A stretch of 64,000 bases of DNA, from assembly GCF_001553565.1 (NCBI RefSeq), contig NZ_CP014228.1:1674001-1738000 (forward strand). Direction: 5' to 3'. Below the pieces are notes generated by a model. That model saw nothing but the letters and a program-made list of their open reading frames with translations. It was not told where the DNA came from and did not search any database. This DNA comes from Actinomyces radicidentis (GTDB lineage Bacteria > Actinomycetota > Actinomycetes > Actinomycetales > Actinomycetaceae). A program made the position numbers and the translations under genes. Of this stretch, positions 4,536 to 58,442 are shown piece by piece. Numbering within the stretch: the stretch's first letter is position 1; the number at the start of each line of letters is the position of its first letter.

Positions 4536-6089
4536 TCAGCCGATGAGGGGGCGCTCGGCGGGCATGCGGATGACGCGGCGCCGCTCGCGCATCGCCAGGG
4601 CGCTCGTGGCGGTCATCGTGCCGACGCGGCCGATGAACATGAGGCCGACGATGACGTACTTCGCGCTGAGCGGCAGGATCGGCGTGATGCCGGTGGACAG
4701 CCCCACGGTCGCGAAGGCGCTGATGACCTCGAAGAGGATGCGGTCGAGGGTGAGGTCGGTCAGCTGGAGGAGGAGGAGCGTCGCGACCCCGACGATCGTC
4801 GAGCCGATGAAGGCGACGGCCACGGACAGGCGCACGGTGGACAGGGTGATCCGCCGTCCGAAGGCCTCGATGTCCCGGTCGCCTCGGGCCTCGGCCATGA
4901 TCGCCAGGACGAGGACGGCGAAGGTGGAGACCTTGATGCCGCCGGCCGTCGAGGCCGAGCCGCCGCCGACGAACATGAGGGCGTCCTGGAGGAACCAGGT
5001 CGCCTCGTGCATGTGCTCGGGCGCGATGGTCGACAGCCCGGAGGAGCGCGCGTTGACGCCGTTGATGAGCGCCGTGAGGACCTTGCCGCCCAGCGGCAGC
5101 CCGCCGTAGGTGTTCGGGTTCGTCCACTCGAAGACGGCGATCGCGAGCGAGGACGCGACGGTTAGCGCCGTGTAGGTCGTCAGCGTCAGCTTCGTGTGCA
5201 GCGTCCACAGCCGCGGACGGCGCACGTGGCGCTGGATGTCGAGGATGACGGGGAAGCCGACGGCGCCGACGAAGGTGCCGACGACGATCGGCAGGCCCAT
5301 CCACCAGTCGCTCGCGTAGGGGGTGAGCCCCTCCGGCATGACGACGAAGCCGGCGTTGTTGAAGATCGACAGCGCCATGAAGACGCCGTACCACAGGGCC
5401 GTGGGCAGGTCCTGCCCGTGCGTGAGGAAGCGTGGGACGAGCACGAGGGTGAGGACGCCCTCGCAGCCGAGCGCCGTGTAGATGACGGCTCGGAGCAGGC
5501 TGGCGACGTCGCCGAGCCGGGACTGGTTCTCGGAGGCGGCCAGCATGCGCTGGGTGAGGCTGACGTGCCGGGACACGGCGAAGGAGAGCAGGGAGGCGAG
5601 CGTCATGATGCCGAGGCCGCCGACGGCGGCGCCCGCGATGATGACCGCCTGCCCGAAGGTCGACCAGTACGTCGCGGTGTCCACGGTGGTGAGCCCGGTG
5701 ACGCAGACGGCGGAGGTCGCGGTGAAGAAGGCGTCGATGAACGACGCCCGCTCGAGCCCCGCGGCGGTGGCGACGGGCAGGCAGAGCAGTCCGGTGATGG
5801 CGGCGATGATGGCGGCGAAGACCGCGACGGCCAGCCGGGCGGGGGCGAAGCGCGCGGCGCGCTCGACGCGGCCACGCAGCCGCAGGACGCTGCGCAGACG
5901 CGCCAGGACGCCGGCGTCCGCGTAGGCGACGTCGTCGGCTGCGACGACGGCCTCCCCGGAGGGGGCGTGGGCGCCCGTGGTGCGGCGCCGCGAGACGGCC
6001 GGGCGCACGGGGGCGTGCCAGTGGCGTCGGCCGCCACGGGTGCCCGTGGGGCGGTCGGGGGAGCTGCTCGGGGAGGGCACGGGCGTCAT
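4536..6089 (-). CDS. Potassium channel subunit, TrkH/KtrB family
   Basis: Integral membrane pore protein for potassium uptake, partner of the RCK protein encoded just downstream. The 517 residues begin with a hydrophilic arm of about 90 residues, followed by repeated membrane segments and re-entrant pore loops; stretches such as TSAVCVTGLTTVDT, NNAGF, GGGSASTAGGIKV and FATVGLSTGI are the four selectivity-filter-like repeats of the family. The ATG at 6089 has no good ribosome site, so the true start could be later in the hydrophilic arm. The gene is divergent from the small HTH gene at 6329. Confidence 0.92.
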   Translation of the reverse strand: MTPVPSPSSSPDRPTGTRGGRRHWHAPVRPAVSRRRTTGAHAPSGEAVVAADDVAYADAGVLARLRSVLRLRGRVERAARFAPARLAVAVFAAIIAAITGLLCLPVATAAGLERASFIDAFFTATSAVCVTGLTTVDTATYWSTFGQAVIIAGAAVGGLGIMTLASLLSFAVSRHVSLTQRMLAASENQSRLGDVASLLRAVIYTALGCEGVLTLVLVPRFLTHGQDLPTALWYGVFMALSIFNNAGFVVMPEGLTPYASDWWMGLPIVVGTFVGAVGFPVILDIQRHVRRPRLWTLHTKLTLTTYTALTVASSLAIAVFEWTNPNTYGGLPLGGKVLTALINGVNARSSGLSTIAPEHMHEATWFLQDALMFVGGGSASTAGGIKVSTFAVLVLAIMAEARGDRDIEAFGRRITLSTVRLSVAVAFIGSTIVGVATLLLLQLTDLTLDRILFEVISAFATVGLSTGITPILPLSAKYVIVGLMFIGRVGTMTATSALAMRERRRVIRMPAERPLIG

Positions 6090-6212
6090 TGTGGCCCCCT
6101 GTACCCGCCGCTTCCATCCTCCCTGGTCGACACACAGGTGACTGGAGTGTGAGTTGCGACGTGTGTGGCGTCTGAGAGTGAGAACGACCTGTGCGACACG
6201 AGGGGTGCGGGA

Positions 6213-6218
6213 TATATT
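6213..6218 (+). promoter_or_regulatory. Probable -10 box for the 6329 HTH gene
   Basis: TATATT stands out as an AT-rich island in a divergent region of 239 bp and lies about 110 bp before the HTH gene start. No good -35 hexamer is present 16-18 bp upstream (TGTGCG is the best), so the promoter could need an activator or another sigma factor. Confidence 0.45.
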
Positions 6219-6328
6219 GACCCCAGCACCGGAGCGGTCCGTGGGCGGTCCTCGAGACCCTTGCGAACGCCGTCGGCCCCGCCGCTCCGCGCCTCACTAG
6301 CAGACCTGACGACGGGACCTCAGCACCC

Positions 6329-6571
6329 ATGGCACCGGGCATCCCCAGCTCCTCCGGCGCTTCGAGCGCACCCTCCTTCCTCACCGTGGCCGAGGTGGCC
6401 GCGATGCTGCGCGTCTCGAAGATGACCGTCTACCGCATGGTCCACTCCGGCGACCTGCCCGCGATGCAGGTCGGACGTTCCTTCCGCGTCCCCCAGCGCG
6501 CCGTCGAGGAGTACCTCTCCGTCGGCCTGGGTGACTGGGGCCACGAGGACTCGGAGTCGACCGGCTCCTGA
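6329..6571 (+). CDS. Excisionase-fold/BldC-like helix-turn-helix protein
   Basis: Small DNA-binding protein of 80 residues with one MerR/excisionase winged-helix domain at about 17-64: FLTVAEVAAMLRVSKMTVYR, then MVHSGDLPAMQVGRSFRVPQRAVEEYL. This is the pattern of actinobacterial BldC-like proteins, which bind DNA cooperatively as regulators. No recombinase, phage gene or attachment site lies near, so a phage excisionase role is unlikely. It sits just upstream of the bS22 gene, a pairing I recall as common in actinobacteria. Residues before 15 are low complexity, and the exact start is moderately sure. Confidence 0.85.
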   Translation: MAPGIPSSSGASSAPSFLTVAEVAAMLRVSKMTVYRMVHSGDLPAMQVGRSFRVPQRAVEEYLSVGLGDWGHEDSESTGS

Positions 6572-6584
6572 GAGCCGGTAGGAT
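6557..6584 (+). promoter_or_regulatory. Candidate promoter for the bS22 gene
   Basis: TCGACC (6557-6562), a 16-bp spacer and TAGGAT (6579-6584) resemble a housekeeping promoter. The -35 lies inside the end of the HTH gene and the -10 straddles the first bases after its stop. A start near 6591 would give a 5' leader of about 130 nt. Confidence 0.4.
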
Positions 6585-6720
6585 GGGCCGGTCACCCGAG
6601 TGGCCGCAGTGACCCGTCCACGAGACCCGTCACCGATCGACCACCCGCTCGCCCGGCCCGCCGACCCCGTCGGCACCGGAGAGAGCGAGCACCCGGCACG
6701 CACGACCTAGAGGAGTCCCC

Positions 6721-6819
6721 ATGGGATCTGTCATCAAGAAGCGCCGCAAGCGCATGGCCAAGAAGAAGCACCGCAAGCTGCTGCGCAAGACGCGTCACCA
6801 GCGTCGGAACAAGAAGTGA
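6721..6819 (+). CDS. Small ribosomal protein bS22 type (AURKAIP1/COX24-domain), 32 aa
   Basis: A 32-residue, extremely basic peptide that begins MGSVIKKRRKRMAKKKHRK and ends in RRNKK. It matches the actinobacterial family annotated as AURKAIP1/COX24-domain protein, which was seen in mycobacterial ribosome structures as the 30S protein bS22 near the decoding region. Its ribosome site AGAGGAG (6709-6715) is ideally placed before the ATG. Half of its residues are Lys or Arg. A strong terminator follows at 6838. It is short enough to be missed by automatic gene finders with a length cut-off. Confidence 0.9.
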   Translation: MGSVIKKRRKRMAKKKHRKLLRKTRHQRRNKK

Positions 6820-6837
6820 CGGTCACCTGTTGACCCG

Positions 6838-6867
6838 GAGGCCCCGCACCACGGAGTGCGGGGCCTC
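6838..6867 (+). terminator. Intrinsic terminator after bS22
   Basis: A perfect 12-bp stem (6838-6849 with 6856-6867, GAGGCCCCGCAC and its complement) encloses a 6-nt loop and is followed by TTCTTCT, the best T-rich tail in this part of the window. Confidence 0.85.
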
Positions 6868-6873
6868 TTCTTC

Positions 6874-6894
6874 TACTCTGGCACCGTGCCAGAG
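6874..6894 (+). promoter_or_regulatory. Candidate -10 box with overlapping operator upstream of murB
   Basis: TACTCT (6874-6879) is a plausible -10 element about 67 bp before the murB start. It overlaps a perfect inverted repeat of 9 bp arms, CTCTGGCAC (6876-6884) and GTGCCAGAG (6886-6894), separated by one base. A repressor bound there would cover the promoter. The link to murB is inferred from position only. Confidence 0.4.
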
Positions 6895-6945
6895 CGCGGG
6901 CCCGCGCCCGCCGTCCGACCGAGCACCACCAGGAGCGTCCTGAGC

Positions 6946-8243
6946 ATGTCCGAGACCCCAGCCGCGACCCCCACCGCCCAGTACGGGCTGAGCGTCCCCG
7001 AGACGCTGGAGCAGGACGAGATGTGCATGATGCCGATCTCCGTCCACGCCGGACGCGAGGACTGGCCCGCAGGCGTCGAGGCCCTCGCCCGCCCCCTGGA
7101 CCCCGCGGCCCCCGCCCCCACCACCCTCGCCGAGCTCACCACCCTCCGGGTCGGCGGCCCCGTCCGCGACTACGTCGAGACCACCACCGAGGCCGAGCTC
7201 ATCGACGCCGTCCGCGCCGCCGACGCCGACGGCACCCCTCTCCTCGTCATCGGCGGCGGCTCCAACGTCCTCGCCTCCGACGCCGGATTCGACGGCGTCG
7301 TCGTGCGCGACGCCCGCACCGACGTCGACCTCTCCGCCGACGACCGCTGCGGCGGCGTCGAGTTCACCGCCGCCGCCGGCACCGCCCTCGACGACCTCGT
7401 CCGCCAGGCCATCGCCTCCGACTGGGGCGGCTTCGCCCCCCTGTCCGGCATCCCCGGCACCGTCGGCGCCGCCCCGTCCAGAACGTCGGCGCCTACGGCA
7501 CCGAGGTCGCCGAGCTCATCGCCGGTGTGCGCGCCTGGGACCGCCTCGAGAACCGCCCTGTGTGGATGCCGCTGGGCGACCTGCACCTCTCCTACCGCGA
7601 CTCCGCCCTCAAGCGCTCCCTCACCGACCCCGCCGTCGGCGGTGGCCGCACCTGGGGCCCCACCGGCCGCTGGGTCGTCCTCTCCGTCACCTTCGGCGTG
7701 CGCCAGGCCTCCCTGTCCGCCCCCATCGCCTACGGCCAGCTCGCCAAGACGCTCGGCGTCGAGGTCGGGGACCGCGTCGACTCGCGCGCCGTGCGCGACG
7801 CCGTCCTTGAGCTGCGCCGCTCCAAGGGAATGGTGCTCGACGCCGCCGACCACGACACGTGGTCGGCCGGCTCCTTCTTCACCAACCCGGTCCTCACCAC
7901 CGAGCAGGCGGCTGGCCTCCCCGAGGACGCGCCCCGCTACCCGGTCACCGATCACACCAAGGCCATCGTCGGCACCCGCGAGGCCCCCGTCGTCGAGGGA
8001 CTCGTCAAGACCAGCGCCGCCTGGCTCATCGACCACGCCGGCTTCGGCAAGGGCCACGCCGTCGGCGGCGTCCCGACCGACGAGGCCACGGCCGCCCTGT
8101 CGACCAAGCACGTCCTCGCCCTCACCAACCGCGGCACCGCCACCGCCGAGGACCTCGCCGCCCTGCGCGATGAGGTCGTCGACGGAGTCGAGTCCGCCTA
8201 CGGCGTGCGCCTCGTCCCCGAGCCCGTCCACGTCGGCTGGTGA
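6946..8243 (+). pseudogene. murB: murB, UDP-N-acetylenolpyruvoylglucosamine reductase, single-base frameshift
   Basis: FAD enzyme that reduces UDP-GlcNAc-enolpyruvate to UDP-MurNAc with NADPH in peptidoglycan precursor synthesis. The N-terminal part, in one frame, reads TTLRVGGP, then VIGGGSNVLASD, up to GIPGTVGAAP; the rest reads on in another frame as VQNVGAYG, YRDSALK, SAGSFFTNP and PEPVHVGW. The join is the C run at 7472-7475: one added C restores the expected GAAPVQNVGAYG and a protein of about 432 residues with all catalytic residues (YRDS Tyr/Arg, AGS Ser, PEP Glu). No other damage is seen. The ATG at 6946 has AGGAG ten bases upstream; MPIS at 7030 is an alternative start. A real lesion would need another murB copy; an assembly error is likelier. 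Confidence 0.9.
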
Positions 8244-55801: not shown

Positions 55802-57163
55802 ATGGCACGACTCTTCGGCACCGACGGCGTGCGCGGACTGGCCAACGACCTGCTCACCCCCGCCCTCGCGGTCCAGCTCGGCGAGGCCGCCGCCAAGGTC
55901 CTCACCCGCGATACCCCCGCCTCGAAGCGCTCCCGCACCGGGCGCCCGCGCGCCATCGTCGGCCGCGACACCCGCGCCTCCGGCGAGTTCCTCGACCACG
56001 CCATCAGCGCCGGCCTGGCCTCCTCCGGCGTCGACGTCACCCGCGTCGGGATCCTCCCGACCCCCGCCATCGCGCACCTCACCGCCACGCAGGACATCGA
56101 CCTCGGCGTCGTCATCTCCGCCTCCCACAACCCCTTCCAGGACAACGGCATCAAGTTCTTCGCCCGCGGCGGCTACAAGCTCGAGGACGCCGTCGAGGAC
56201 GAGATCGCCTCACTCCTCGGCAAGGTCACCGACCTGCCCACCGGCGACGGCGTCGGCCGCGTCATCAAGGGCGAGACGGTCGCGGACCAGAACTACATCG
56301 GCCACCTCGTCGACTCCGTCGCCACCGACCTCGCGGGGCTGCGGATCGTCGTCGACGCCTCCAACGGCGCCGCCAGCAACGTCGGCCCCGCCGCGCTGCG
56401 CGCCGCCGGCGCCGAGGTCATCGTCATCAACGCCTCCCCGGACGGCCTCAACATCAACGACGCCTGCGGCTCCACCCACCCCGAGCAGCTCCAGCAGTAC
56501 GTCCAGTTCGTCGGCGCCGACATGGGCGTGGCCTACGACGGCGACGCCGACCGCTGCCTCGCCGTCGACGCCGAGGGCACCCTCGTCGACGGCGACCAGA
56601 TCATGGGCCTGCTCGCGGTCGGCATGAAGGAGGACGGGACCCTCGGCTCCGACACCCTCGTCGTCACCGTCATGAGCAACCTCGGCCTCATCCTCGCCAT
56701 GAAGGAGCACGGCATCCGCACCGTGCAGACCGGCGTCGGAGACCGCTACGTCCTGGAGAAGATGCTCCAGGGCGGCTACACCCTCGGCGGTGAGCAGTCC
56801 GGCCACGTCATCGACTCGCTCCACGCCACCACCGGGGACGGCGTCCTCACGTCGCTGCGCGTCGCCGCCCGCATGAAGCGCACCGGCAAGAGCCTCAAGG
56901 AGCTCGCCTCCATCGTCCAGCGCCTGCCGCAGACCCTCATCAACGTCAAGGGCGTCGACAAGGGCGCCGCAGGCACCAACAAGGCCGTCCAGGACGCCGT
57001 GGCCGCCGCCGAGCAGCGCCTCGGCGAGACCGGCCGCGTCCTCCTGCGCCCCTCGGGCACCGAGCCGCTCGTGCGCGTCATGGTCGAGGCCGCCACCCAG
57101 GAGGAGGCCGACGCCGTCGCCGGCGAGCTCGCCCAGGTCGTTCAGGCCAACCTCGCCCTCTGA
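55802..57163 (+). CDS. glmM: Phosphoglucosamine mutase
   Basis: Converts glucosamine-6-phosphate to glucosamine-1-phosphate for UDP-GlcNAc synthesis. The 453-residue product has MARLFGTDGVRGLAN, the phospho-serine Ser108 in VVISASHNPFQDNG, the metal loop AYDGDADRC, the sugar-specificity loop GGEQSGHVI and the phosphate-binding [30 protein letters not shown] precedes the ATG. With glmS nearby at 58567 it supplies the two consecutive steps of amino-sugar synthesis. It converges on coaA across a repeat-rich gap. Confidence 0.97.
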   Translation: MARLFGTDGVRGLANDLLTPALAVQLGEAAAKVLTRDTPASKRSRTGRPRAIVGRDTRASGEFLDHAISAGLASSGVDVTRVGILPTPAIAHLTATQDIDLGVVISASHNPFQDNGIKFFARGGYKLEDAVEDEIASLLGKVTDLPTGDGVGRVIKGETVADQNYIGHLVDSVATDLAGLRIVVDASNGAASNVGPAALRAAGAEVIVINASPDGLNINDACGSTHPEQLQQYVQFVGADMGVAYDGDADRCLAVDAEGTLVDGDQIMGLLAVGMKEDGTLGSDTLVVTVMSNLGLILAMKEHGIRTVQTGVGDRYVLEKMLQGGYTLGGEQSGHVIDSLHATTGDGVLTSLRVAARMKRTGKSLKELASIVQRLPQTLINVKGVDKGAAGTNKAVQDAVAAAEQRLGETGRVLLRPSGTEPLVRVMVEAATQEEADAVAGELAQVVQANLAL

Positions 57164-57167
57164 CGCC

Positions 57168-57277
57168 GAGATCGGGACGTCCTGACTCTGAGATCGGGCG
57201 GTTCTCCCCAGCCGGGGAGAACCGCCCGATCTCGTGGTTCAGATGTCCCGATCTCGAGGTCAGGACGTCCCGATCTC
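57168..57277. repeat. Nested inverted-repeat cluster between glmM and coaA
   Basis: Inner arms of 20 bp (57190-57209 and 57214-57233) are perfect complements around an AGCC loop. Outer arms of 19 bp (57168-57186 and 57259-57277, GAGATCGGGACGTCCTGAC and its complement) enclose them. The core GATCGGG or CCCGATC occurs five times, including an extra copy at 57246-57253. The inner hairpin alone would work as a terminator for both genes; the outer copies suggest a repeated palindromic element. Confidence 0.8.
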
Positions 57278-57326
57278 GCGGGGAGGCGGTGAGGCGCCCG
57301 ACCGGGCCACCTGCCCAGCGCGGCGC

Positions 57327-58442
57327 TCAGGCCTTGCGCAGGAGCACCTTGGAGACGTGGTGGTGCTCGTCCTTGTGGAGCACGAGGGTCGCCCGCCCAC
57401 GCGTCGGCGCGATGTTCTCCCTCAGGTTCGTGAGGTTGACGGACTCCCAGACCTCGTTCGCGGCGGTCACCGCGACGTCGTCGGGGATCGACGCGTAGCG
57501 CTGGAAGTAGGACTCCGGGTCCTCGAAGGCCGTGTGCTTGAGCGTGAGGAAGCGGTCGAGGTACCAGCGCCGGATGTGCTCGGGGTCGGCGTCGACGTAG
57601 ATCGAGAAGTCGATGAAGTCGCTCACCGCCAGCGCCGAGGAGCTCACGCGCGCCCCGGGCACCCCGGAGACCGACGGCGCCGAGACCGCGGCGGGCTCCG
57701 CCTCGAGGGCCTGGCGGCCGCGCGGCGCCGGCTGGAGGACGTTGAGCCCCTCGAGGACGAGGACGTCGGGGCGCTCCACCGTGATCGACTCGCCGGGGAC
57801 GACGTCGTAGACCTTGTGGGAGTAGACCGGCGCCTCGACCCGCGGCGCGCCGGACTTCACGGAGGAGACGAAGTCGAGGAGGGCGCGGCGGTCGTAGGAC
57901 TCCGGGAAGCCCTTCCGGGCGGTGAGCCCGCGCTCCTCGAGGACCGCGTTGGGCAGGAGGAAGCCGTCGGTCGTCACGAGGTCGACCCGCGGCGTCTCCG
58001 GGAAGCGGGAGAGCAGGTGGGCGATGAGGCGCGCCGTCGTCGACTTCCCGACGGCGACGGACCCGGCCACGGCGATGATGAAGGGGGTCGGCGGGACGTC
58101 GACGCCGAGGAAGCGGGAGGTGCGCCGCCCGCGCTCGCGGGTCGCGGTGATGTAGTCCTCGAGGAGGGCGGTCAGCGGCCGGTAGACGACGTCCACCTCG
58201 GGCAGGTCGATGGGGTCGCCGAGGCCCCGGAGCTTCTCGACGTCGGCCTGGGTCAGCGGCAGGGGCGCGGTCCGTGCGAGCGAGCGCCACTGGTCGCGGG
58301 TGAGCTCGACGTAGGGGGTGGGCGCGGGGGAGCCTTCGGGGCGGTCCGCGTTGGGGGAGACACTGGGGCGGTCCGGGGTGGGGGAGACGGCGGAGCGGTC
58401 CGGGGCGGGGCGCACGGAAGTCACCACACCAGTCTGACGCAT
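57327..58442 (-). CDS. coaA: Pantothenate kinase, type I
   Basis: First and rate-limiting step of coenzyme A synthesis. Family landmarks: [12 protein letters not shown] near the N-terminus, P loop [58 protein letters not shown] and [11 protein letters not shown], with an insertion of about 30 residues just after it. From ATG 58442 the product is 371 residues against a usual 310-320. The excess is mainly an N-terminal arm with three imperfect PDRxxVSP units, encoded by a degenerate 27-bp repeat near 58329-58410. A GTG at 58499 is a possible earlier start; neither has a good ribosome site. Confidence 0.92.

Follow-up and report, generated by a model that had tools for sequence, protein, structure and literature searches.

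The intergenic element between glmM and coaA

The window analysed here, a 64,000-nt stretch of the Actinomyces radicidentis genome, contains glmM and coaA as a convergent pair, with stop codons at 57161-57163 and, on the minus strand, 57327-57329. The features at this locus are as follows:

55802..57163, plus strand: glmM, phosphoglucosamine mutase (TIGR01455, 531.7 bits against a cut-off of 447.55)
57168..57189, plus strand: first plus-strand 22-nt unit, 4 nt past the glmM stop
57190..57209, plus strand: left arm of a perfect 20-bp stem, which includes the second plus-strand core (57190-57198)
57214..57233, minus strand: right stem arm, which includes the innermost of the minus-strand cores (57225-57233)
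57234..57255, minus strand: second minus-strand 22-nt unit, core at 57247-57255
57256..57277, minus strand: first minus-strand 22-nt unit, core at 57269-57277, 49 nt past the coaA stop
57327..58415, minus strand: coaA, type I pantothenate kinase (TIGR00554, 415.6 bits against a cut-off of 235), start codon uncertain

The gap between the two genes contains five GAGATCGGG cores: the plus strand carries two, with GATCGGG at 57170-57176 and 57192-57198, and the minus strand three, seen as CCCGATC at 57225-57231, 57247-57253 and 57269-57275. A 22-nt register is kept on either side (57168/57190 and 57225/57247/57269), the plus half leading out of glmM and the minus half out of coaA. The inner cores are joined by the perfect 20-bp stem (57190-57209 with 57214-57233), which has the loop AGCC, while GAGATCGGGACGTCCTGAC (57168-57186) has an exact inverted copy of 19 bp at 57259-57277. 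The first-pass annotation of this DNA had described five cores, a perfect 20-bp hairpin, a second 19-bp pair and one further core copy; our recount bears out each of these, with the further copy being the core at 57247-57255. The entire window holds seven GAGATCGGG, including the five at this locus, as against a mean of 1.91 in shuffled windows, of which 1 in 100 reached seven. The predicted fold of the sense RNA from 57160 to 57295 has an energy of -101.2 kcal/mol (z -9.29), which was equalled in none of 200 shuffles. The element thus has the GC-rich hairpin of an intrinsic terminator; on neither strand does a T run follow the stem or the outer pair.

A dispersed family of arrays at gene ends

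The first-pass annotation had pointed to a genome search for additional copies, and this was productive: GAGATCGGGNNNTNNT has 119 matches in the 3.05-Mb A. radicidentis genome, against 0 for the control, and the exact 16-mer GAGATCGGGACATCCT occurs 69 times. Defining an array as a run of 16-mers matching at 13 or more of 16 positions, with the best matching at 14 or more, we recovered 72 arrays at 65 loci from 47 stretches around matches and the window. Fifty-two arrays have two units, seven have three and 13 have one unit over the threshold. The loci are denser at 0.75-1.5 Mb of the contig, where 31 of the 65 lie in 0.75 Mb.

The arrays are mostly extragenic. Based on our own uncurated gene calls from codon usage, 39 lie in tandem gaps, 24 in convergent gaps, five in divergent gaps and four within called genes. 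Counting gaps of 60 nt or more, these stretches have 146 tandem, 43 convergent and 42 divergent ones; hence convergent gaps account for 24/68 intergenic arrays as against 43/231 gaps, and divergent gaps for 5/68 as against 42/231. In this genome the arrays are also biased to the 3' ends of genes and to the sense orientation. As a convergent gap makes any array sense, the 24 arrays in such gaps are uninformative on orientation; those in tandem gaps comprise 29 sense and 10 antisense arrays. Altogether 53 of the 72 follow a same-strand gene, with the other 19 outside the sense 3' place, and 40 of these 53 (40/72) start between -2 and 23 nt from its stop codon. Neighbouring arrays less than 200 nt apart face each other in seven cases and diverge in none, the facing pairs being joined arrays at convergent or nearby gene ends. 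Two other gaps, near positions 1075775 and 1173606 of the contig (G000:C1), have facing arrays linked through a long palindrome at their centre, as in the window, with stem sequences that differ from that of the window.

Among the 46 genes immediately upstream of arrays, 10 were scanned, of which seven exceed a curated cut-off and three fall below it. Those identified are gatB, ilvD, a PatB-type lyase, thioredoxin, glutamate-1-semialdehyde aminomutase, glmM and coaA, and no common function is apparent among the scanned genes. Elsewhere in the genus, 72 of the 108 arrays with both neighbours called, from 121 in named species, follow a same-strand gene, while 36 do not. The 23 arrays of two further genomes, G005 and G028, comprise 12 behind a same-strand gene, 10 that are not and one that is not intergenic, pointing to a weak 3' preference there. 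One G005 array (G005:C1:14172) lies behind a tRNA gene, and the Actinomyces haliotis counterpart of the A. radicidentis array at G000:C1:9893 also lies behind an apparent tRNA end.

Anatomy of the repeat unit

The arrays have the layout core-linker-core, in which the core is (C)GAGNTCGG with T or G as the next base, and the linker sets the period, which is 22 nt or, in some lineages, 23 nt (G020, G014 and G030). The phase is exact. In A. radicidentis stretches picked regardless of spacing, 90 core pairs are 22 nt apart and 19 are 44 nt apart, the doubled period, with five or fewer at any other spacing between 9 and 59 nt. The loci of named species, which were picked with a 22-nt pattern, have 260 pairs at 22 nt, 146 at 44 nt and at most one at other spacings. 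Solitary cores are rare: in an unselected 200 kb of Actinomyces gerencseriae, 30 of the 32 GAGATCGGT cores lie within arrays and two stand alone, whereas 0 of the 23 GAGATCGG with A, C or G as the next base lie within arrays. Likewise, 26 of the 28 GAGTTCGGT in G005 lie within arrays. The linkers are lineage-specific, being GACATCCTGACCTC-like in A. radicidentis and TAGATATAACCATC-like in G005; in the named species they run TC, then four bases that vary, then TCCG, and close with a variable end. A conserved C at -4 and another at -1 mark the C-rich leader.

Distribution and turnover

Of 49 Actinomyces genomes, 14 have 25-591 pairs of GAGNTCGG spaced by exactly 22 or 23 nt (103 in A. radicidentis) and the remaining 35 have 0-6, as against 0-2 in 164 genomes from other genera of the family; the highest counts in reversed-pattern controls were 14 (G062) and 12 (G028). 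When a wider range of gaps was allowed, as many as 40 background pairs appeared in another genus, and these are taken to be coding sequence. A related 22-nt pattern was found in at least 120 stretches of named genomes, and all 80 of the matches listed come from Actinomyces, namely A. massiliensis, A. gerencseriae, A. israelii and A. haliotis. A two-unit pattern of the A. radicidentis type has 0 matches in the named genomes, a collection that may omit near genomes. The array family is restricted to a part of the genus Actinomyces.

The nearest relative found is A. haliotis, whose coaA is 97% identical and whose genome has 19 matches of the A. radicidentis unit type. Twenty-one of the 72 A. radicidentis arrays could be compared by eye with A. 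haliotis, the other 51 having no usable orthologous gap in the stretches fetched: 11 have an array of the same type, seven an array of another 22-nt type, one is doubtful and two have no array. In A. haliotis itself (C27:84000-103999, about 5930-8060) the ends of glmM and coaA are ~2.1 kb apart, with other sequence between them. Array position is kept mainly between sister species. Behind gatB, which was read in 30 of the 49 genomes, seven of them array-rich, A. radicidentis is the one genome to satisfy the array definition; at this place A. haliotis shows a pair of cores spaced by 24 nt, and what looks by eye like a decayed copy is present in A. massiliensis. Behind coaA, an array is present in A. 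radicidentis alone among the 30 loci read, and deep positional conservation was thus found at neither gene. In a coaA tree, whose weak backbone fits one gain as well as several, the eight array-rich species included fall into four small groups, and G028 is grouped with the array-poor G029.

RNA folding and termination

We folded 45 arrays from A. radicidentis, 45 from named species, 10 from G005 and 12 from G028. The mean z-scores in the sense orientation are -0.8, -0.3, -1.6 and -0.3, respectively, and in the antisense -0.4, +0.5, -1.5 and +0.6; the arrays therefore fold only slightly better than shuffles, and sense arrays slightly better than antisense ones. Pairing between positions -3 and 8 is possible in 61 of the 88 distinct contexts, as against 45.8 in shuffles (P 0.0002, uncorrected for kinship), and in 15 of 18 in A. 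haliotis, as against 9.0 (P 0.005). In A. radicidentis alone the figure is 19 of 28 against 15.4, which is not significant (P 0.13). A search of the window stretch and 15 loci against Rfam at the gathering cut-off returned tRNAs only, so a known RNA family was rejected as a candidate.

The convergent order of glmM and coaA is kept in five array-poor congeners. In four of these the gap is 70-147 nt and contains another hairpin (z -1.6 to -3.8); the fifth has a gap of 541 nt (z -5.4); the corresponding gap of A. radicidentis is 170 nt (z -8.0). Given the other hairpins in the gap of array-poor congeners, the arrays probably act as a terminator here, and we predict that the two facing arrays double as a bidirectional one. 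As general stand-ins for terminator hairpins the arrays were rejected: the best hairpin following an array (37 ends) does not differ in strength from that at 94 ends without one (p 0.68), indicating that they are not general replacements for terminators.

Mobility

The first-pass annotation had named a linked transposase as potential support for mobility. No Y1/RAYT transposase (PF01797) was detected in the A. radicidentis genome, which is 100% complete, while five of 14 control genomes were positive; on this search of A. radicidentis, RAYT-driven mobility was rejected. Some G005 arrays are embedded in a noncoding repeat, about 0.4-0.8 kb long, whose ends resemble GGCTCTTCCGGTTT and are taken to be ISL3-like. 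Copies of this repeat are found, for example, near 89070-89810 and 133610-134000 of G005:C1:1-200000. By pattern, five of the 11 G005 arrays have the ISL3-like leader, and one copy of the repeat has 8-bp matching flanks. Also in this genome, at about 108000-109460 of G005:C1, an ISL3-type element is inserted in an array leader with an 8-bp duplication. Neither ISL3-like ends nor an 8-bp duplication were seen by eye in the listed A. radicidentis arrays, and searches of the array-rich genomes G020 and G063 found no ISL3 transposases. Carriage by ISL3 is thus not general and, as a vehicle, was set aside for all but a part of G005. A phage or plasmid origin was likewise rejected, as one array pattern had 0 matches in viral contigs and the window stretch had none in plasmids and phages.

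Relationship to known repeats

The closest parallel is offered by the REP and BIME elements with their RAYT transposases (PMC2817692, PMC3116915, PMC3686654 and PMC3733652). PMC2817692 describes them as present in over 100 copies per genome, extragenic, imperfectly palindromic and lineage-specific, with suspected roles in termination and protein binding. The first-pass label 'REP-like' accordingly holds in that the A. radicidentis arrays are dispersed, extragenic and 3'-biased. It fails in that REP/BIME units alternate, whereas those of Actinomyces are unidirectional tandems in the same orientation with a rigid period, 22 nt in A. radicidentis and exactly 22 or 23 nt among all carriers, with the cognate Y1/RAYT gene not found in A. 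radicidentis. The arrays are thus a REP-like yet distinct, genus-restricted family of phased arrays. Similarly, the TAACTGA repeats of Beggiatoaceae and other bacteria are described (PMC4679880) as short intergenic direct repeats occurring as many sets per genome and proposed to be a protein target; they are, however, head-to-tail heptanucleotides placed mostly upstream of start codons, in contrast to the spaced Actinomyces cores, which in A. radicidentis are mostly downstream of stops. STAR elements of staphylococci (PMC3532100) are also interspersed intergenic direct repeats, but differ in sequence and organism. Among the titles and abstract openings listed from the open-licence literature, we found no paper describing the Actinomyces arrays.

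Interpretation

We favour the reading, with a probability of about 0.45, that this is a lineage-amplified family of phased arrays whose cores are a putative multi-site target of an oligomeric protein. The cores would be recognition sites that such a sequence-specific protein has to occupy side by side. Its target would most likely be DNA, in which two helical turns come to roughly 22 bp. Side-by-side binding would hold the spacing rigid while leaving the linker free to vary. We infer from the exact phase, the free linker and the rarity of solitary cores that protein binding fits better than an RNA function, and the first-pass suggestion of a multi-site protein target is in this respect plausible. 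Tandem transposase sites at the ends of transposons such as Tn7 and Mu, which an oligomeric protein occupies side by side, are comparable in size (~22 bp) and offer a lead. The family would amplify inside each lineage, much as REPs do, and at glmM/coaA two facing arrays make one long palindrome that probably serves as a boundary or bidirectional terminator of the convergent pair. Against this reading stand hairpins that are no weaker after arrays than elsewhere, the weak 3' preference in G005 and G028, array positions that are shared mainly by near relatives, and the 19/72 A. radicidentis arrays outside the sense 3' place.

A quite possible, though less probable, account is that of a selfish REP- or MITE-like repeat with no host function, copied by a transposase or by gene conversion, its 3' location resulting from the purging of insertions in genes and promoters. 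Lineage-specific amplification, the few positions shared at gatB, the swap of unit type at the same gap between sister species (7/21 by eye) and the ISL3-like leaders in the G005 repeat, one copy of which has 8-bp flanks, all agree with it. Yet it has to contend with the Y1/RAYT gene not found in A. radicidentis, the negative searches for ISL3 transposases in G020 and G063, and viral contigs, plasmids and phages without a match; moreover, the tight placing at stop codons and the sense bias in A. radicidentis exceed what purging alone predicts. We consider it unlikely that the unit is a 3' UTR RNA element that influences transcript stability or transcript ends, whether as a small stem-loop (CCG-AGNU-CGG) or as a site for an RNA-binding protein. 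The sense placement right behind stop codons, the pairing of positions -3 and 8 over all contexts and in A. haliotis, and the slightly better sense folds speak for such an element, but the mean fold z-scores are low in all four sets, the pairing is not significant in A. radicidentis alone, Rfam returned just tRNAs, and the spacing is stricter than RNA hairpins require.

Two further explanations have very little to recommend them. Uptake sequences of Neisseria occur as inverted pairs at gene ends, and the short conserved core and inverted pairs at gene ends seen here would suit a DNA uptake sequence; this is very improbable in view of copy numbers of tens to hundreds rather than thousands, and of the 30/32 cores in arrays against 2/32 solitary ones in the unselected A. 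gerencseriae sequence. The strong hairpin between convergent genes recalls a local duplication of a single terminator, the fallback of the first-pass annotation; as the sole explanation it is excluded by genome-wide repetition, mostly in gaps (68/72 arrays), and with 119 genome matches and a family common to 14 Actinomyces genomes its chance is practically nil.

A further extension of the protein-target reading, which we regard as decidedly unlikely, is that the arrays are gene-end boundaries, in which an oligomeric DNA-binding protein on the phased cores behind a stop codon would confront RNA polymerase as a polar roadblock or an insulator, the protein, the linker and the spacing (22 or 23 nt) co-changing by lineage.

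General considerations

These arrays add a genus-restricted, exactly phased repeat family to the known dispersed elements at bacterial gene ends. The 14 carriers and 35 non-carriers within one genus provide a clean comparison through which the protein that recognises or disseminates them could be traced. If the partner protein acts as a roadblock, the arrays would represent a new bacterial way of separating neighbouring genes.
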